From a virus, in the IMG/VR virus record IMGVR_UViG_3300032893_000134, positions 1-40,757 of that record: 40,757 bases of DNA, one strand, 5' to 3'. Each line of letters opens with the position of its first letter. Position 1 is the first letter of the stretch. Below the pieces are notes generated by a model that saw nothing but the letters and a program-made list of their open reading frames with translations, was not told the DNA's origin and did no database searches. Made by a program: the position numbers and the translations under genes. Shown here in pieces: positions 8,529 to 40,757 of this stretch.

Positions 8529-8551
8529 AAAAGCCCGGCACTGCGCCGGGC
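8524..8551 (-). terminator. Intrinsic terminator of the leftward late operon
   Basis: GCCCGGC (8533-8539) pairs with GCCGGGC (8545-8551). Read leftward the stem is followed by TTTTTTAT. It lies 25 bases past the last late gene. It has no T-run rightward, so it does not stop the converging early operon. Confidence 0.85.
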
Positions 8552-25614: not shown

Positions 25615-27921
25615 TTACTGCCCATCGGGGGTACTACCTTTCGATTCCTGCTTTTCTTCCGCCGCGTTGTCGTCGGACGTGACCGGCGCTGTAGCGGCAA
25701 TGTGAATCTGTGCGCCTGCATTGATTTGCGCGACTTCAAGCGCGGTTTCCCGCTGGATCATCGCTACCTGGATCGCTTTTTCAGCGTCAATCCGCGCCTT
25801 CTCAAGCTCAAGTTCGGCATCGCGCTGTGCCTGCGCGCGTTTGGTTTCGGCGTCCAGTTCGGCGGCAATCGCGCGCTGGCGGGCGTCGAATTCGGCCTCG
25901 TGCGCACGAACCTGCGCATCAGTCGCGGCAATCTGCTTGCGGGCTTCGGCATCGACTTGCGCGGCCTGAATCTTCAATTGCGCGCCGGATTCCAGGGTTT
26001 TTACCTTGTCGTCCATTGCCTGCATCGTTTCCTTGGCCTGCTCCAATGCCTGCTGCAACTGCTGAATCTGCGCGATGGCTTGCGGATCGGGCGGCGCTTT
26101 GCCTTGCTGCTTGGCCTGCATCTGCGCCTGCACTGGCGGCGGCAGCATGATTTGCATGCGATCTGCAATCACGTCCGCATCGGGGATGTCTTGCGCGCGG
26201 ATTACGAGGTCGCCAGCTATTTGCATGAGCGGCGGGTAAGCGGCAACTAGATCGGACAGCAAAGATGCGGTTTCTTGGCGCTTGGTAGCGTAGCCGGGGC
26301 CTGCTTGCGAGGTCACGGCGTAATCATGGCTCTTGACGCCGCTGATGTTGCTTTCCTCGATGGCTTTTAGCGCTTGCGTTACCGGATCAATGCCTTGCTG
26401 GTTGATTTTCACTTCGCGGCGGATTTCGTCCAGTCCGACGATATGCACGACACGTTCGGTATCGTAGTAGGACGGAATGCATTCCAGAATGATGCGGCCG
26501 GTCAATGCGATGGCGCGAGACAAATTATCGACGTAGTTAAACGTCGCGTTGTTGCCCTGCTGCTTGCGCTCGTTGATCGCGCGCCCGCTGATTTCCTGGC
26601 CTTTCTGCCCCAGCGATTGCTCATACATGCCAATGGTGCTTTTGATCATCTGCACCATCGTTTGGCACCACTGGATATAACCAGCATCCGGCACGCTCGG
26701 TTCATTGCGTTGCGGCGGCTGTAATCCTGCGGGTGTCTCGCCATCTTCCATAAAAGCGTTGTACGGAAGATAGGAGTAATTCTTGATGTTCGCCTCTTTC
26801 CAGAAATTCTCATAGCCTTTGACTTGCTCGGCAGTGATAATCCATGGCGTGCGAGGCGTGAGCGCGAGGCGGATGGCCTGCTGCGTCATGCCGAAATTCA
26901 GCATCGATTGCGCATCCCGCGCATGCCGGGTCAGACCTTGATAGATGCGCTTGCCATCCAGCATCAGATCGTCGCCAACCGTGCCGACAACCGGAATCAT
27001 CGTGCCCGGCCAGTCGTATTTTTCCAGCACTTGCTGACCGCCTGCGATTTTGTACCACTCGACGGACCAGGAATCGCACTCGCGCTCTTTGGCTATCGTC
27101 ACACCTTCGGGCCATTCATCCTCGGACGGCATTTCGTCTTTCCAGCCTTGTGAGCCGTCAGACATCAGCACCATTGTGCGTTTTGTGCACACACGCCGGT
27201 AGTAATCCGCGACGATGACCTTATCTTTCGCGGGCATCCAAAGCGTATCAGGCGACTCAAAACTTATTGGCTCTGCATTCGGCCATTGACGCTCAAACTC
27301 GCCTTTGCTGACGATTTCGATAACGAACGCATACATGCGATCGGAGCCGTCCGGCTGCTGGTAGTCCGTGTCCGCAAATACCGTATTGCTATCGAGAATC
27401 GGCTTGATGACTAACTTTTGGTCGAAGCTTTGGTCATCCAGATATTCAGAGCAAATGCGCCACCAGCCACGGCCGCCGACGACTGACTGCTGGAACCCGT
27501 TATCGTAGGCCGCATCCGCTTTCGAGTCGTACTCAATCGCGCGGGTCATGCCTTGCAGGATCTCGGCGACTTCCTTGGACGCATTGCCGCCGGCCGGGTG
27601 AATCCGAATGCCGGGGCGATTCTGCCGCTGGTCGTTGACTACCTGCGCGACAAATTGTTTAAGCTGGTTGAATTCAAGGCAGATTTCTTTGTTCTGCGTG
27701 CGCTCGCGGCGGACGGTATCGGGCCACTGCTGACCGGGCGAATAGACAAACAGCGTGTCCGTGCGCTGGCTGTCGTGATTGTCCTTATCGTCCTCCTGGA
27801 TGCGCTGGAAACGTTCTTTAGCCTCCTCCAGCACATCGGGATAGCCTTCGCGCGGCTTGATCGTTTTCTTGGAATTCGCGTCAACTACCGCGTCTACCGG
27901 ATTAACGTATTCAGTTGCCAT
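25615..27921 (-). CDS. Portal protein, P22 gp1-like, 768 aa
   Basis: It is the twelve-subunit DNA channel of the head. The sequence from EAKERFQRIQEDDKDNHDS and DTLFVYSPGQQWPDTVRRER through LEFNQLKQFVAQVVNDQRQN is the P22-like portal signature, with WWRICSEYL, the FADTDYQQPDGSDRMYAFV segment and the EISGRAINERKQQG motif later. Residues about 600-740 form a very long Ala/Gln/Glu coiled coil, equivalent to the P22 barrel. It overlaps the terminase gene by 11 bp. Confidence 0.93.
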   Translation of the reverse strand: MATEYVNPVDAVVDANSKKTIKPREGYPDVLEEAKERFQRIQEDDKDNHDSQRTDTLFVYSPGQQWPDTVRRERTQNKEICLEFNQLKQFVAQVVNDQRQNRPGIRIHPAGGNASKEVAEILQGMTRAIEYDSKADAAYDNGFQQSVVGGRGWWRICSEYLDDQSFDQKLVIKPILDSNTVFADTDYQQPDGSDRMYAFVIEIVSKGEFERQWPNAEPISFESPDTLWMPAKDKVIVADYYRRVCTKRTMVLMSDGSQGWKDEMPSEDEWPEGVTIAKERECDSWSVEWYKIAGGQQVLEKYDWPGTMIPVVGTVGDDLMLDGKRIYQGLTRHARDAQSMLNFGMTQQAIRLALTPRTPWIITAEQVKGYENFWKEANIKNYSYLPYNAFMEDGETPAGLQPPQRNEPSVPDAGYIQWCQTMVQMIKSTIGMYEQSLGQKGQEISGRAINERKQQGNNATFNYVDNLSRAIALTGRIILECIPSYYDTERVVHIVGLDEIRREVKINQQGIDPVTQALKAIEESNISGVKSHDYAVTSQAGPGYATKRQETASLLSDLVAAYPPLMQIAGDLVIRAQDIPDADVIADRMQIMLPPPVQAQMQAKQQGKAPPDPQAIAQIQQLQQALEQAKETMQAMDDKVKTLESGAQLKIQAAQVDAEARKQIAATDAQVRAHEAEFDARQRAIAAELDAETKRAQAQRDAELELEKARIDAEKAIQVAMIQRETALEVAQINAGAQIHIAATAPVTSDDNAAEEKQESKGSTPDGQ

Positions 27922-29257
27922 GCACCGGGTACGCCACAGTAGAAGGCATCAGGTCATGCACGGTCAACGGCGTATCGGTACGCTGCTTGACGATGCCCGG
28001 AAACAGTTCCGACATGGCCCACACGAAGGCATCTGCGCGATTCGGGGACTTTTCGCCCATGTAGCCATTCGTGGTCATGCTGGTTAATTCCTCCTCAAGA
28101 TCGGGGAAATTACCCGCGAACCTGATTTTTCCATCTTCGGTTAATGCGCTGATCGGCTCGGCACGCACGACCTTTCCGCGCGAGGCGTTCACGAGTTTTA
28201 CTGATGCTGTGGGCTTGGCCGTTTTTAAGACGAAACGCACCATATCGCCGCCGAAGTTCTTTTCGGCAATCATCGCGTCTGCTTGGTGGTTGTCGTACAC
28301 GCTGGCAGCCACGCGGCCCCAAGTTTGCGGGCCAGCCTTGACGGTGGCATCCTCCAGCACGTAAGCCTTGCCATCCAGGCCCATGCCCGCACAGATGATG
28401 CCGATTTCGTCATTGCCCGCGTTTTCCGTATCACCCGATCCGCTCGGGTCAATCGCCACCACAACGCGGCGCATGTCCGGCAGGTTTTCGAGTACGCGGT
28501 TTTTGTCGATGCTCTCGATTGACCAGAGCGCCCCAGCCGTGATATCGGCAAATCGGCCTTCAAGGAAACGCTGCCGCATGCGCACCGGCAAACGCTCCAA
28601 CTCGCGCAGGTAGTCGGCCGGCAAATTCTGCGTGTTGTCCTTCGGATTCATATACATCAACGCATATGCATCCGGGTCAATCAGCGCTTTACCCGATTCG
28701 CCTTCGATCTTGCGCACGAATTGCTTGTAAGACCAGTGCGCTTGCGACGGCGGGTTTTCGTCGTAATAGGCTTTAAGGCGCAATTCTTTTTGCTGCCCGC
28801 CTAGATCGTAATAGCACTTTTGCGCCAGTCGAGTAAGCGCCGTGTTTACCGAACTTAGCGGTATCTGGCTGCATTCGTTAAACGCCATGGTGGCGTATTC
28901 CTGGCCGAGAATCTTTTCTGTGCGGTCCTTATCGTCCAAACCGCCAAACCACACTTGCGCATCATTCTGAAAACGCGCGAAGAAATCCGTTTTGTTGATT
29001 TCGTAATCGACAGTTGGATAACACAGTTCCATCATTTTGGGCCATGTGTCCATGACGATGGATTGTTTGACTGCGGTAAAGCGAAACCGAAAGATGGCGT
29101 GCCGGGAGCGCGGAGAGGCGATTGCACGCATTCCGATGGCGCGGCAGATGACGAATGTTTTTCCGCTGCGAGAGCCGCCAGCAAGCATGACGTGCTTTGG
29201 AGCTCCGCCTAGCAGGCTCCAAGCCTCTTGCTGCTTGACGGTGAGGGAAAACGTCAC
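27911..29257 (-). CDS. terL: Terminase large subunit, 448 aa
   Basis: It is the ATPase-nuclease that pumps DNA into the head. Walker A is GGSRSGKT at 27-34; Walker B with the catalytic Glu lies in MAFNECSQ near residue 130. The RNase H-like nuclease starts at VVVAIDPSGSGD (about 265), with a second acidic cluster at MIAEKNFGGDMV and the last near SPNRADAFVWAMS. It overlaps both the small terminase (4 bp) and the portal gene. Confidence 0.95.
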   Translation of the reverse strand: MTFSLTVKQQEAWSLLGGAPKHVMLAGGSRSGKTFVICRAIGMRAIASPRSRHAIFRFRFTAVKQSIVMDTWPKMMELCYPTVDYEINKTDFFARFQNDAQVWFGGLDDKDRTEKILGQEYATMAFNECSQIPLSSVNTALTRLAQKCYYDLGGQQKELRLKAYYDENPPSQAHWSYKQFVRKIEGESGKALIDPDAYALMYMNPKDNTQNLPADYLRELERLPVRMRQRFLEGRFADITAGALWSIESIDKNRVLENLPDMRRVVVAIDPSGSGDTENAGNDEIGIICAGMGLDGKAYVLEDATVKAGPQTWGRVAASVYDNHQADAMIAEKNFGGDMVRFVLKTAKPTASVKLVNASRGKVVRAEPISALTEDGKIRFAGNFPDLEEELTSMTTNGYMGEKSPNRADAFVWAMSELFPGIVKQRTDTPLTVHDLMPSTVAYPVHGN

Positions 29258-29628
29258 AGGACGTTTGTATCAGCCTGCGCGACTACCAAGGTCAGTTTGC
29301 CGCCATCAGGGCCGCCAAGATTCACAGCCTGGGCTGCCTTGCCATCCAAGCGATCATGCAGTTCCTTGAAGCCAGCCATGAACGTAGGCGAATTCACTGG
29401 CTCATTCAGTAGCATCTTGAGAAACCGATAGTTGATCCGGTTAATCGTGCGCTTTGGCTCGGGATGCTTTTCGCCTTCCTTGAGCGGCTTTTCCTTGCCG
29501 ATCCGCTCGGACATCAGCATCAGCGAGATACGGCCTAGACCCTTGGGAACGCTAAAACTCTTGAACTTGGAGAGCGCTTCCTGCGACATTTCTTCGCCGG
29601 TCGCGTCCTCGTTGATTTCGGTATACAT
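29254..29628 (-). CDS. Probable terminase small subunit, 124 aa
   Basis: The assignment is mainly by position, directly before terL with a 4-bp overlap. The ATG at 29628 (MYTEINEDATGEEMSQEALS) was preferred to a TTG twelve codons earlier. The basic middle (KPLKEGEKHPEPKRTINRIN) could bind DNA. The end (FKELHDRLDGKAAQAVNLGG) matches a C-terminal pattern common in phage terminase small subunits and DUF5681-type proteins. P22-type pac sites lie in this gene; none is identifiable here. Confidence 0.65.
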   Translation of the reverse strand: MYTEINEDATGEEMSQEALSKFKSFSVPKGLGRISLMLMSERIGKEKPLKEGEKHPEPKRTINRINYRFLKMLLNEPVNSPTFMAGFKELHDRLDGKAAQAVNLGGPDGGKLTLVVAQADTNVL

Positions 29629-29690
29629 GTTTCGGGTGCCTTTGCGAGTGGCTAGAAAGCGCAAGCATGCGGGACCGCCGCAAGTCGGGG

Positions 29691-29706
29691 TGTTTCACGT
29701 GGAACT
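29691..29706. promoter_or_regulatory. parS-like ParB-binding palindrome
   Basis: TGTTTCACGTGGAACT matches the bacterial parS consensus TGTTTCACGTGAAACA at 14 of 16 positions. It matches the common natural variant ending GGAACA at 15 of 16. It lies in the 76-bp gap between the 52-aa gene and the small terminase gene, not inside a coding sequence apart from two bases of a stop codon. No ParB or ParA gene is present. Confidence 0.7.
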
Positions 29707-29863
29707 ATTTCTTTTTCGGCATTGGCGCAGCAGGTTTCTTTGCTGCTTGGCGCTGCTCGGAGTACCCGATCGCGACGGCCTGCTTGATCGGCTTCCCCGC
29801 CGCAATTTCCGTGGCAATGTTCTTGCTGCGCGCCGCATTGCTAATCGATTTAATGAGAGGCAT
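29705..29863 (-). CDS. Conserved MPLIKS-KQAVAIGYS phage protein, 52 aa
   Basis: PLIKSISNAARSKNIATEIA and GKPIKQAVAIGYSEQR fit a very common small phage protein whose function is unknown; it ends in a Lys/Ala/Pro tail. GGAG lies 7 bases before the ATG. An in-frame extension to 30007 exists but lacks a ribosome-binding site and shows no family similarity. Confidence 0.85.
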   Translation of the reverse strand: MPLIKSISNAARSKNIATEIAAGKPIKQAVAIGYSEQRQAAKKPAAPMPKKK

Positions 29864-30013
29864 AGCTAACTCCAAAATCATCCGCGCCCGCTGGCGCAAC
29901 ATAGGCTGAAGACTCTGCCCGGAGGGGACGCCATCTGCACGTCGCGGATTGCGGCCGTTATTCGCCCCACTAGGACCGCGCTGGGTGGTGCCCGTGCTTC
30001 CCAGCATGCGGGC

Positions 30014-30041
30014 AAAAAATAACCGCCGGGGGAGGCGGTTA
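30014..30041 (-). terminator. Intrinsic terminator ending the late leader (tR'-like)
   Basis: Leftward, TAACCGCC and GGCGGTTA (8-bp perfect stem, loop of 6) are followed by TTTTTTG. A second hairpin, GGTCCG/CGGACC (30045-30062), precedes it. It lies between the late promoter and every virion gene, so late expression must read through it, which suggests antitermination. The 150 bases from here to the 52-aa gene hold nothing else I can assign. Confidence 0.85.
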
Positions 30042-30082
30042 TAAGGTCCGAGGGGACGGACCGGAGAAGGTGAGAAAAGGGT

Positions 30083-30190
30083 TGTTGGTGGCCGGTGCTG
30101 ATCCCGGCTTAGCGGCGTGACACCCTGATTCGAGTGCGAGAACTCAACCGCTTTCGTACAAAAACGCATCAGCCTGCGCATTCACCAACA
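30083..30190 (-). ncRNA. Structured phage RNA in the late leader
   Basis: TGTTGGTG (30190-30183) and CACCAACA (30090-30083) close a 108-base element on the minus strand. Inside are GCCGG/CCGGC and GAG/CTC hairpins and the block GTGAATGCGCAGGCTGATGC next to the 5' arm. From memory this block and the 3' part GGGATCAGCACCGGCCACC recur in lambdoid prophages and resemble the isrK/C4-type phage RNAs; the identity is unverified. It lies just before the leader terminator, so it would be a stable end of the short late-promoter transcript. Confidence 0.55.
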
Positions 30191-30301
30191 CGGCTGCGGA
30201 CTATTTGATTGGCGGGTAGCCGACCTACAGGGTCGCCGAATGCCGCAAATCTATGCTCTTGCAAGCTCCACAGTGCAAGCTGTGGCAATCCGCATGCGTC
30301 T

Positions 30302-30377
30302 TGGTGCCACCGGCACGGACTCGAACCTGCAACCACACCCTTACGAAAGGAGTGCTCTACCTTTGAGCTACGGCGGC
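30302..30377 (-). tRNA. tRNA-Thr (anticodon CGU), slightly irregular
   Basis: Reading leftward from 30377 the acceptor stem GCCGCCG pairs with CGGTGGC, followed by A and an encoded CCA. The D arm is GCTC-AAAGGTA-GAGC and the anticodon loop TTCGTAA (CGU, reads ACG). The T arm is GCAGG-TTCGAGT-CC(G)TGC. Two defects are visible: a T-T mismatch in the anticodon stem and one extra G in the 3' side of the T stem. It may still fold or may be decaying. It lies in the late leader, about 120 bases after the promoter. Confidence 0.8.
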
Positions 30378-30497
30378 TAAATTGTCGCCATGGTTGTTCG
30401 ATCCATTGCTAAAAACTCCTATTTCAGAGACGCCAATCCCATAAAACAGGATTATCTCGCATGGCGTACCAATTGAGCGCAGCGCCGAATTAACGCG

Positions 30498-30526
30498 AAA
30501 ATATAGCAATCGTTATGCCGTGTCAA
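30498..30526 (-). promoter_or_regulatory. Late promoter (pR'-like)
   Basis: A perfect -35 TTGACA (30526-30521) overlaps the stop codon of the Q-like gene. The -10 is TATTTT at 17 bp or TATATT at 15 bp. It drives leftward transcription into the tRNA, the structured RNA, the terminator and the virion genes. The 120 bases between it and the tRNA hold only tiny frames (12 and 9 codons). Confidence 0.75.
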
Positions 30527-31005
30527 GCGACTTCTGTCATTATTCTTGCGTCATACGCCATCGGCATACGCTCGCCCACGCGCCGCGCCCAATCCCAAGT
30601 CGAATCCAGCATCGCCAAGCTCGCCGCATATCCCCGCGAATTCGACAGGTGCGCCCGTTTACCGTGCCCCCCGCATACCTCGCAAGCCGCATCTTCCAGC
30701 ATCGGCGCATCCGGCAGCGCGATGTGGCCTAGCCCGTGGCATGCCTCGCATTCGGGCGATAACCACCACAGGAGCGCGCTCGTTACGTCGCCAATCTGCA
30801 AGGTGACGCGCCTGCCGATGCGCCGCTGGATCAGCAGAGTTAGCTCTGTCATGCGGCCCAGCGGCTTTTTACCGGCTTCCCACTCGGCCAGTACGGTGAT
30901 TGCCAAGCCGGGGAACTGGTCTTTGTGCGTGGCGTAGGCGCTGGCGATCAGGACGGTTTGATCTACGTGGCCGGCACCGACTGCGGTAACGAGCCTTTCA
31001 AGCAT
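30523..31005 (-). CDS. Putative Q-type late antiterminator with zinc finger, 160 aa
   Basis: Two knuckles, C86-x2-C89 (CEACHGLGH) and C108-x2-C111 (CEVCGGHGKR), form the DnaJ-like CxxCxGxG zinc motif seen in several lambdoid Q antiterminators. The flanks are helical (LIQRRIGRRVTLQIGDV; LAMLDSTWDWARRVGERM). The place is decisive: last gene of the leftward delayed-early operon, directly before a strong promoter whose first transcript meets a terminator. If it is Q it would modify RNA polymerase at that promoter. Binding to the site is not shown. Confidence 0.65.
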   Translation of the reverse strand: MLERLVTAVGAGHVDQTVLIASAYATHKDQFPGLAITVLAEWEAGKKPLGRMTELTLLIQRRIGRRVTLQIGDVTSALLWWLSPECEACHGLGHIALPDAPMLEDAACEVCGGHGKRAHLSNSRGYAASLAMLDSTWDWARRVGERMPMAYDARIMTEVA

Positions 31006-31129
31006 TCGGCACCGCCGTTAACGCAAAACTCCCATCCTTAAGCTCGTACAGGCTCCAGGAGCAATGCGTCACTTGCCCGGCAATCCCATACATCCGCCCT
31101 AGACTGTCTGCAATGCGTTTGAGTCGCAT
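30998..31129 (-). CDS. Small protein upstream of the Q-like gene, 43 aa
   Basis: ATG at 31129 follows GGAGGAAAC, one of the best ribosome-binding sites in the window. The product MRLKRIADSLGRMYGIAGQV, then THCSWSLYELKDGSFALTAV, is basic at the start. It overlaps the end of the glycosyltransferase gene by 31 bp and the start of the Q-like gene by 8 bp. Family unknown. Confidence 0.65.
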   Translation of the reverse strand: MRLKRIADSLGRMYGIAGQVTHCSWSLYELKDGSFALTAVPNA

Positions 31130-32487
31130 GTTTCCTCCCATAGACGCCAGATCGCATCAGCAACAGCGGGGCCGGGCGAACCGAAAAACTTTTTCTTGAG
31201 TATATCGAAGTCCGGCACATCCGGCACCCAATGCGGATGCTTGAGAAACGCAATCGCGTTTTCCGCGTAGGTCTCACGCGACTCGGCAATCAGGTAGGTA
31301 TCTTCACAGCCCGAGCGCTCGATCAGCATTGCGCCAACCCGCGAAGGAATATCATCGCCGCGCACGGTAATCGTTGGAATGCCCGCGATGAATGCATCCA
31401 TGATGCTGTTCGTTCCGCCAAATGGGAAAGCATCCAAGGCGAATGAGCATTTCGCCAGCCGGTCCAGATAAACCTGATAGGACGTGCGCGGATAGATGCG
31501 CGCTTTTGGAAACCACTTGCGAATCTCGTAATCGACCATCGCATGCTGTAGGTCGGTCTGGTTCGGAAAGAAGTGAAACACAACCTCTGGAACAGCCGTT
31601 TCAATCTGCTTCAGCGCACGCATGAATGGCGGAATCAGCTTTTGCGCGATGGATGGCACGGCGACGCTGTAGCGCTGCGGATCGCGCTTTGGAACCGTGA
31701 AATCCGAGCGCATGGTGTGTATGCCGGTGCCATCGGGGAGCGCGATTACCCGCTCGCTGTAATTCGCTGTGTCGCCTACAGTGGATTTTTCCGTCAGCAG
31801 ATAGTCGATGTATGGCGATAGCGAGCTAGCGGGGTGCCCTGGAAACATGATTTGCACGGGCGCAAGACGAATGTTCGCCAGCGTAGTTGTCCATGTCGCC
31901 ATGCCAATGGACGGGAACAGAATGATGTCCGGCGATTCGGCGTGAATTATTTCTACGATCTGGTCAAACTGCAATTCTTGATCGGGCAGATGCAACAAAC
32001 GTTCAAATACATGAAAAGCGTCCGGGTCGCTTGCATCGCCGCCATACATGGCTACCGTCTCAAAGCGCTCTTTCAGACTTGCCAATATCGGCGCATAGCA
32101 GCGGTACATGCTGTGATTCGTGCCGAACCATTCCAGCGGGATCAGGATTTTCGGGCGCGCTTTTGCCTCTGCCGGGCGCGTGCATTCTGGCACATCCATG
32201 CTGGCAAGCGCCATGTCACGAAACCACTTGTTTATGGTGCGCTTGATGGCGTGTTTGTTTGGCGCGTCAGTGTACGTGCAATACATGTAGACCTCGCCCG
32301 CGCTTTTGACGGCCTCAAAGGGAATGCCGTATTGCGCAAGCTCATCATGCAAGCCCATCAGCTTGACGCGCTGATCGTAGGCGGCTTGGCTGATGATAAA
32401 CGGTTCGGCCATCGCCGCTAGTATTTTTGTAATGATGATGGCGGGATGCGGGCCGACTGGCTGCTCGCCGTCTGCGTTCTCGCTCAT
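31099..32487 (-). CDS. GT41-like (OGT/HMW1C-type) glycosyltransferase, 462 aa
   Basis: The C-terminal catalytic half shows the GT-B pattern of GT41 enzymes: LFPSIGMATWTTTLANIRLA, PVQIMFPGHPASSLS and YIDYLLTEKS in the donor-site region, then CSFALDAFPFGGTNSIMDAF (about 347-366) and TITVRGDDIPSRVGAMLIER, which contact the nucleotide sugar in relatives. The first 130 residues are unassigned. It would transfer a sugar to protein or another surface acceptor in the host cytoplasm. The ATG at 32487 overlaps the stop of a membrane microprotein as ATGA. No tetratricopeptide repeats are present. Confidence 0.75.
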   Translation of the reverse strand: MSENADGEQPVGPHPAIIITKILAAMAEPFIISQAAYDQRVKLMGLHDELAQYGIPFEAVKSAGEVYMYCTYTDAPNKHAIKRTINKWFRDMALASMDVPECTRPAEAKARPKILIPLEWFGTNHSMYRCYAPILASLKERFETVAMYGGDASDPDAFHVFERLLHLPDQELQFDQIVEIIHAESPDIILFPSIGMATWTTTLANIRLAPVQIMFPGHPASSLSPYIDYLLTEKSTVGDTANYSERVIALPDGTGIHTMRSDFTVPKRDPQRYSVAVPSIAQKLIPPFMRALKQIETAVPEVVFHFFPNQTDLQHAMVDYEIRKWFPKARIYPRTSYQVYLDRLAKCSFALDAFPFGGTNSIMDAFIAGIPTITVRGDDIPSRVGAMLIERSGCEDTYLIAESRETYAENAIAFLKHPHWVPDVPDFDILKKKFFGSPGPAVADAIWRLWEETCDSNALQTV

Positions 32488-32576
32488 GCCATCACCATAA
32501 ACCAAATGATCAGCGTAGCCAAATTGGTGATAATCGCCAGGATGCACAGGCGGGCGGCTAGTTTGTCGGCGGACAT
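32484..32576 (-). CDS. Membrane microprotein coupled to the glycosyltransferase, 30 aa
   Basis: MSADKLAARL is followed by one hydrophobic helix (CILAIITNLATLIIWFMVMA) that runs to the C-terminus. Its TGA overlaps the glycosyltransferase ATG as ATGA, which supports both starts. An in-frame ATG six codons upstream (32594) is an alternative. It may anchor or regulate its neighbour; that is inference. Confidence 0.55.
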   Translation of the reverse strand: MSADKLAARLCILAIITNLATLIIWFMVMA

Positions 32577-40434: not shown

Positions 40435-40679
40435 GTCCAAAGTCCTTTCAGAAGATGCTTCGGCGTGGTGCCAAGTGCCCGCGCCAATTCCTCAATCTTG
40501 TGAAGCATGAATCGCTGCCGCCCCGCCTCGAAATTGACAAGGCTCGTGCGCGTCATGTTCAAGCGCTTGGCAATCTCTCCCTGTGTCAGTCCGAGCGTTG
40601 ACCGGATATAGGCGCAGCGCGTGCCGATGGCCCCGTAGATTGGCTCAATTGGTACGCTATTTTTATCCGCTTCGCTCAT
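40431..40679 (-). CDS. XRE-family HTH regulator, 82 aa
   Basis: Residues 20-78 form a Cro/C1-type HTH: TRCAYIRSTLGLTQGEIAKR then LNMTRTSLVNFEAGRQRFML and ELARALGTTPKHLL. It is short, with no protease-sensitive C-terminal domain, so it resembles Cro or an antitoxin-like regulator more than CI. It lies mid-operon, far from a promoter, with its start inside the terminal repeat. Confidence 0.88.
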   Translation of the reverse strand: MSEADKNSVPIEPIYGAIGTRCAYIRSTLGLTQGEIAKRLNMTRTSLVNFEAGRQRFMLHKIEELARALGTTPKHLLKGLWT

Positions 40680-40757
40680 TCCGCACCCCCATCGCTCTTA
40701 GTGGGGGAGGCGGGGAGAGACGCGGCAAAGGCATCCCGCGAACCCCAATCGCCGGCC
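40631..40757. repeat. Terminal direct repeat, copy 2 (genome closure)
   Basis: Exact copy of 1-127. Joining the ends gives a circle of 40,630 bp and restores an uninterrupted gene overlap. Confidence 0.95.

Follow-up and report, generated by a model that had tools for sequence, protein, structure and literature searches.

What switches on the late genes of this phage, and what is the RNA that precedes them? The window, i.e. the whole stretch of DNA that was analysed, is a viral record, 40,757 bases long, that we take as a complete circular map because it carries an exact 127-bp direct terminal repeat (1-127 and 40631-40757). It encodes a P22-like podovirus, as indicated by Pfam matches for portal (PF16510, E = 6e-148), coat (PF11651, E = 2e-35) and terminase (PF03237), and the large ORFs between 32.5 and 8.6 kb lie on its minus strand. 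The initial annotation had proposed that late control follows the logic of phage lambda. We consider it probable that a switch of the lambda type, with a distinct kind of Q, controls the late genes here, and that the leader doubles as a gene for a tRNA and a trans-acting RNA of two domains.

Gene order at the start of the late operon

All the features of the locus listed in the initial annotation were found, and all lie on the minus strand. The last gene of the early operon (30523..31005) encodes an orphan Q-like protein of 160 aa with two CxxCxGxG zinc knuckles (CEACHGLG and CEVCGGHG). Its stop codon overlaps a perfect TTGACA (30526-30521), confirming that the zinc protein ends at a -35 box. 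The putative pR'-like late promoter (30498..30526) has two options for the -10 element: TATATT (30505-30500) with an extended TGC and a 15-bp spacer, or TATTTT (30503-30498) with a spacer of 17 bp. We infer that transcription starts near 30491-30493. About 470 nt separate this start from a tR'-like intrinsic terminator (30013..30042) with a 9-bp stem (hairpin 30042-30019), six T and a free energy of -13.4 kcal/mol; position 30014, where the initial annotation had begun the locus, is its end. The leader contains a tRNA-Thr(CGT) with encoded CCA (30302..30377) and a folded RNA, so that each of the elements said to precede the virion genes (tRNA, folded RNA and strong terminator) is present. There are no virion genes between promoter and terminator. 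The first late ORF (29705..29863, minus strand) has a phrog_2423 domain, its start at MPLIKS being deduced from a relative; the 158-aa ORF listed upstream of it spans the terminator and is probably not the real gene. A putative small terminase, the large terminase (PF03237) and the P22-like portal (PF16510) come after (25615..29664, minus strand).

Two minus-strand hairpins with six T were among the best sites listed by a stricter terminator scan of the window: the one at 30019, at the start of the late operon, and a second at 8533, directly after the final late gene. A match to ncS54 at the terminator was weak, below threshold, and was discarded. Just upstream of the Q-like gene, the early operon also holds a gene for a glycosyltransferase family 41 / HMW1 domain-2 protein (31099-32547, minus strand), which is unusual for a phage and is kept in the relative described below.

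Conservation of the promoter and terminator

We ranked promoters with our own position-weight scoring, which rewards an extended -10 and covers both strands. The late promoter came first among all sites of the window, making it the top-scoring sigma-70 site of the genome, and no better-scoring promoter was found downstream in the late direction. A simple consensus scanner returned 2 promoter-like sites in the window for 3.5 expected, i.e. no excess. Since this scanner alone gives no significant result, the case for the promoter is made by its rank and its conservation.

Relatives were sought among viral contigs by their large terminase, and 29 were found. One of them, L024 (a contig of 41,099 bases, terminase 75% identical), has a homologue of the 160-aa protein that is 53% identical over its whole length and lies in the same genomic place; the protein is absent from all other relatives with enough upstream sequence. 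The order of zinc protein, promoter, leader, terminator and late operon is kept in L024, with a different spacing between gene and promoter: a 63-aa ORF sits between them, and the zinc-protein gene does not end at the -35 box. The L024 leader is short, lacks the tRNA and differs from that of the window, and a covariance model scan found no RNA cassette (domain B, see below) in L024 or in other relatives scanned. TTGACA, TTGCTATATTTTCGCGT and TAATTCGGCGCTGCGCTCAA are retained, and the equivalent promoter likewise ranks first in the 40 kb scanned. The L024 terminator (-20.4 kcal/mol, seven T) is the strongest of its genome in the same scan and precedes the homologue of the window's first late ORF. 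That promoter and terminator were kept while the leader and the coding context of the -35 box changed is what speaks most strongly for a Q-pR'-tR'-type switch, which is the likely reading of these sequences, with the orphan protein as putative Q. A different arrangement was seen in another terminase relative without this Q (L029, 3062-4533), where an unrelated ORF, a terminator and an HNH gene precede TerS in that order; this is possibly a replaced Q module.

The proposal of lambda-like control thus stands in part. Its layout (zinc protein as last early gene, promoter, short leader, terminator, late operon) holds and recurs in L024. The suggestion that the binding site lies in the promoter spacer, as described for known Q proteins, whose binding element is between -35 and -10 and for which a -10-like sequence early in the transcript causes a pause (PMC6606751), is doubtful. 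The spacer upstream of the extended -10 (before TTGC) is identical at 3 of 11 positions between the window and L024 and is the least conserved part, and the most conserved stretch, nearly invariant, runs from about -15 to +20; a spacer site is for this reason not supported. We found no convincing -10-like pause sequence in the early transcript of the window.

The conserved block TTGCTATATTTTCGCGT-TAATTCGGCGCTGCGCTCAA (30473..30509, minus strand) aligns with L024 over 38 columns at 97% identity (E = 1.9e-11) between flanks that are otherwise divergent, and is the likely region of Q loading or pausing. This footprint of promoter and start site is drawn from two genomes, the window and L024, since a single homologue with the full architecture was found. 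The promoter half of the block occurs in no other viral contig searched. Comparison with the L024 leader also revealed a second short block in common, GGCGTCTCTGA (30424..30434, minus strand). A 17-mer of the start block, TTCGGCGCTGCGCTCAA, was dropped as a wider marker, its matches in other contigs lying only within unrelated sequence. We also noted an exact repeat of 15 bases, GCTCAATTGGTACGC, at the leader start (30478-30464) and at the beginning of the gene for an HTH regulator (40643-40657; E = 0.017), which may be due to chance and is treated as such.

An orphan protein with zinc knuckles

Is the 160-aa protein a Q? No match to PF03589 or to another Pfam Q family was found up to E = 1, and its sole Pfam matches, DnaJ_CXXCXGXG and zf-nanos, are both below the cut-off. 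Matches to PHROG Q-like families are weak (E = 0.02 and 0.055) and involve the knuckles only. We rejected the better one, PHROG 6060, as evidence for Q: it is unspecific and also matches 13 of 14 control genomes. Comparison with ten proteins of the lambda Q family by hhalign gave a probability of 77% over 39 columns, again knuckles only, with a profile of two sequences and correspondingly low power. The CxxCxGxG motif is common to DnaJ too. A Foldseek search gave no useful match from a poor predicted structure (pLDDT 49). L024 was the only genome to turn up when further homologues were sought in phages with tblastn and in viral and genome contigs with sequence patterns. The absence of a close Q sequence, remarked on from the outset, is borne out by Pfam, tblastn and the pattern scans. 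Because there is no Pfam Q, the profile and PHROG matches are confined to the knuckles and the structure model is poor, we call the protein Q-like by its position and motif only; on these sequence grounds it would not be a member of the lambda Q family.

Four weak matches emerged when 399 genomes, all of the same bacterial order, were searched with a profile of the Q-like protein. Among them, L372 (1444-2109, minus strand) codes for a protein of 221 aa that has a similar RWWL..CxxC..CxxC stretch and whose gene is followed by a terminator; it may be remotely related to the Q-like protein.

The zinc protein could instead be a transcription activator, or some other accessory at the late promoter, and not an antiterminator. 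Activators can control phage late genes, which makes this a general possibility, and a similarity to Q confined to a common zinc motif would suit it as well. Yet the terminator before the late operon is retained in both the window and L024, and a perfect -35 with an extended -10 is needless at an activator-dependent promoter. We regard such a role as quite improbable and keep to antitermination by a Q-like protein.

Two covarying RNA domains in the leader

The leader folds better than its dinucleotide shuffles, both as a whole (z = -3.3) and without the tRNA (z = -3.55), with none of 100 and none of 200 shuffles as good. A BLAST of the leader against phages returned short, highly similar blocks in unrelated phages, which are the two halves of one element, domain B (30078..30194, minus strand). 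It consists of a closing stem of changing sequence (P1 and P1'), a hairpin P2 (GCGCA-GGCUGA-UGCGC), an insert that differs among copies and usually spans 30-110 nt, and a hairpin P3 (GCCGG-AGAUCAGCA-CCGGC). The loops L2 and L3 are complementary (GCUGA/UCAGC, both in the window copy) and would form a kissing loop. P1, P2 and P3 already appear in the unconstrained minimum-energy fold of the window.

We searched for each half separately. An exact 21-mer of the 5' half was found in at least 119 viral stretches and in 80 genome stretches, mostly from Gamma- and Betaproteobacteria, and a pattern of the 3' half with five free loop bases gave at least 120 matches. Both patterns together yielded 242 distinct copies with both halves, including a handful of doubtful, most divergent ones that were dropped from later analysis. 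The covariance model R1, built from 33 diverse copies with the window left out, recovers the window copy (30194-30078) with 74.6 bits (E = 5.5e-18), every model pair being standard. In the same alignment, the 23 pairs are formed in 95.9% of cells, versus 25-49% in slid controls, and two-sided changes occur at 13 of them versus 4.7 in shuffles (0 of 500 as high). The outer, variable P1 shows up to 72 two-sided changes at one pair among 237 copies. This covariation is free of selection bias because outer P1 was in neither search pattern; variation in P2 and P3 is hidden because each formed part of one. The kissing loop is altered on both sides, from GCUGA/UCAGC to GUCGA/UCGAC, in L222, L223 and L249.

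Upstream of domain B, and directly 3' of the CCA of the tRNA, lies domain A (30196..30298, minus strand), a covarying stem GCGGATTG/TAGTCCGC that closes a variable branched region. In the form found in the window (CGCAU-NNNNAUUG...CAGUNNNN-AGCCGUG), the stem is 98% paired in 11 distinct versions versus 79% when shuffled, and it is also present in the minimum-energy fold of the window. When all copies are considered, 41% have a complementary run of at least 7 in their own upstream sequence, versus 9% when the upstream sequence is taken from another copy. For the central strand, pairing seems possible with a partner on either side, upstream or downstream, which would permit a switch. We rejected the idea that domain A is tRNA-like: T-arm-like motifs occur in 7% versus 4% of controls.

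Distribution and neighbours of the RNA

The leader cargo had been considered unusual. It turns out to belong to a very widespread family of phage RNAs, often in the same position. We clustered the neighbours of 204 loci with enough flanking sequence. A Q-type gene lies upstream on the same strand in 27 of them, from three mutually unrelated families: lambda Q (PF03589, 11 loci), PF06530 (7) and a third family (9). The first two are confirmed as Q; the third has no Pfam match and is presumably DUF1133-like. The other same-strand upstream genes include NinG (11), RusA (8) and cI-like repressors (29). For the remaining 177 loci, the nearest four ORFs upstream include no Q-type gene, and a cI-like gene precedes many copies. 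Genes found downstream in the same orientation code for lysozymes, Rz, holins, endolysins and small terminases; a lysis or TerS gene follows in 29 of the 204 loci, 19 of which also have the Q-type gene upstream. A tRNA lies within 300 nt of 13% of copies versus 1.9% of random positions, and of the 35 tRNAs located within 1 kb, 33 share the strand of the element. Terminator-like sites occur within 120 nt downstream of 16% of copies versus 4% by chance.

Some copies stand elsewhere. Those of Klebsiella phage KlebP_265 and Salmonella phage STGO-35-1 are, together with tRNAs, oriented against the structural genes around them. In phage P1, a B element (69814-69922 of the record, 70.7 bits) follows tRNA-Asn and tRNA-Thr in the C1-controlled ban operon. 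Of 5,426 complete E. coli genomes, 1,555 match a 41-nt core of the element by BLAST (E ≤ 1, with partial alignments among the weakest); many of these matches are on records of the size of P1 plasmids, and among the matches listed almost all are unannotated. Since the copies in KlebP_265, STGO-35-1 and P1 stand apart from Q leaders, we conclude that the RNA is a gene in its own right, often but not always carried in a late leader.

This raises the strongest alternative to the switch: the promoter-terminator pair would be an independent gene for a tRNA and a non-coding RNA, placed by chance before the late operon, with another late promoter in use and the zinc protein doing something else. The cassettes apart from any Q leader in these three phages speak for it, as do the promoters found directly upstream of some B-element copies. 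We disfavour it, and think it unlikely, because L024 keeps the promoter block, the strong terminator and the zinc protein without tRNA or RNA cassette; nor is there a better-scoring promoter downstream for the late genes to use. The strongly structured RNA between promoter and terminator might also be a cis antiterminator, put- or nut-like, that carries the polymerase past the terminator, with the zinc protein a helper or unrelated. However, promoter and terminator persist in L024 without the RNA, other copies of the RNA run against structural genes or belong to the ban operon of P1, and its copies are followed by terminators more often than by chance. We find this reading hardly credible and retain the Q-operated switch.

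Three further arrangements were observed. In L132, L141, L180, L187 and L192, the B element begins right at a promoter with a palindrome in the -35/-10 spacer, which suggests that a repressor may control the RNA. Two or three B elements with different inserts lie close together in L071, L106, L176, L343 and L366. In L135, an int-alpA RNA (RF02996; 264-330, minus strand) directly adjoins a B element.

A model of the late switch and its implications

From the anatomy of the locus, the conservation of promoter and terminator, and the fold and distribution of the RNA, the following course of events can be proposed. RNA polymerase would initiate at the strong promoter that adjoins the end of the Q-like gene; as long as Q is lacking, it would halt at the terminator about 470 nt on, leaving a short leader RNA. 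The promoter should work without Q, and this RNA would for that reason be made ahead of the late genes. As the Q-like zinc protein accumulates at the end of the early operon, it would load on polymerase near the start, probably via the -15 to +20 block, and the Q-loaded enzyme would pass the terminator into the 21-kb operon for head, packaging, tail and lysis. Processing would release the tRNA and the A-B RNA from the leader, as it does the StxS leader sRNA, and both would serve in infection. The A-B RNA would act in trans, with the kissing P2-P3 pair as scaffold and the insert as its likely variable contact.

The switch would add a Q-like protein that has nothing but its zinc motif in common with known families, and a defined promoter block that can be tested. 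The RNA weighs more, given its clear covariation, its occurrence in phage P1 and at least 119 viral stretches, its near lack of annotation among the matches listed and its scores below Rfam thresholds. Where it lies between Q and lysis genes, it would turn many phage late leaders into RNA genes, and not plain untranslated regions. The function of STnc100-type RNAs (see below) becomes testable in model phages such as P1.

Comparison with known systems

The locus is like the lambda Q-pR'-tR' region in having Q as the last early gene beside a strong promoter, then a short leader and an intrinsic terminator before the late genes. The lambda leader is about 190 nt; that of the window is longer, its lysis genes are at the far end of the operon, unlike in lambda, and its conserved DNA surrounds the start site and not the spacer. 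Paired CxxCxGxG knuckles occur in both lambda Q (PF03589) and the 160-aa protein, but the latter lacks a PF03589 match or any similarity outside the knuckles. A tRNA next to the B element and on its strand, as in the window, is also found in the ban operon of P1 and in Erwinia phage Gungnir39, whereas the P1 cassette has a promoter under other control (the C1 operator).

An Rfam scan of the window and of other copies found no match at or above any family threshold, and a literature search for the core sequence returned nothing. The nearest family is STnc100 (RF02076). A second P1 copy scores 33.4 bits against it (cut-off 47) and 25.5 bits with R1, and is hence matched by both models. STnc100 is a prophage sRNA with eleven copies in EHEC EDL933, one of them seen on a Northern blot (PMC5331693); it was detected in outer membrane vesicles (PMC12370729), is related to PasD and is frequent beside other prophage sRNAs (PMC13192938). 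STnc100 and PasD resemble the B element in the GGUGAAU after P1, the succession of hairpin, variable part and hairpin, the closing CACC, and a prophage location near tRNAs (PMC13192938). They differ in the sequences of P2, L2 and L3, and B elements have a far wider host range; the window and further scanned copies score below the RF02076 gathering threshold.

In position, the counterpart is StxS, a leader sRNA of Stx phages between PR' and tR' that is processed by RNase E and regulates stx1B and rpoS (PMC7873438). Like the window RNA, it occupies the region between late promoter and terminator, and it is stable and made without Q (PMC7873438); the likeness is drawn from the published description, and StxS has known mRNA targets while the window RNA has none known. 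Because STnc100/PasD and StxS were already described, we regard the leader RNA as a new, much broader branch of a known kind of RNA. More tentatively, at somewhat less than even confidence, these RNAs in phages of Beta- and Gammaproteobacteria may form a single superfamily, with STnc100 and PasD as an enteric branch of it: a fixed kissing-loop scaffold with a hypervariable insert, made with tRNAs from repressor- or Q-controlled promoters and acting in trans during infection, with late leaders as standard carriers.
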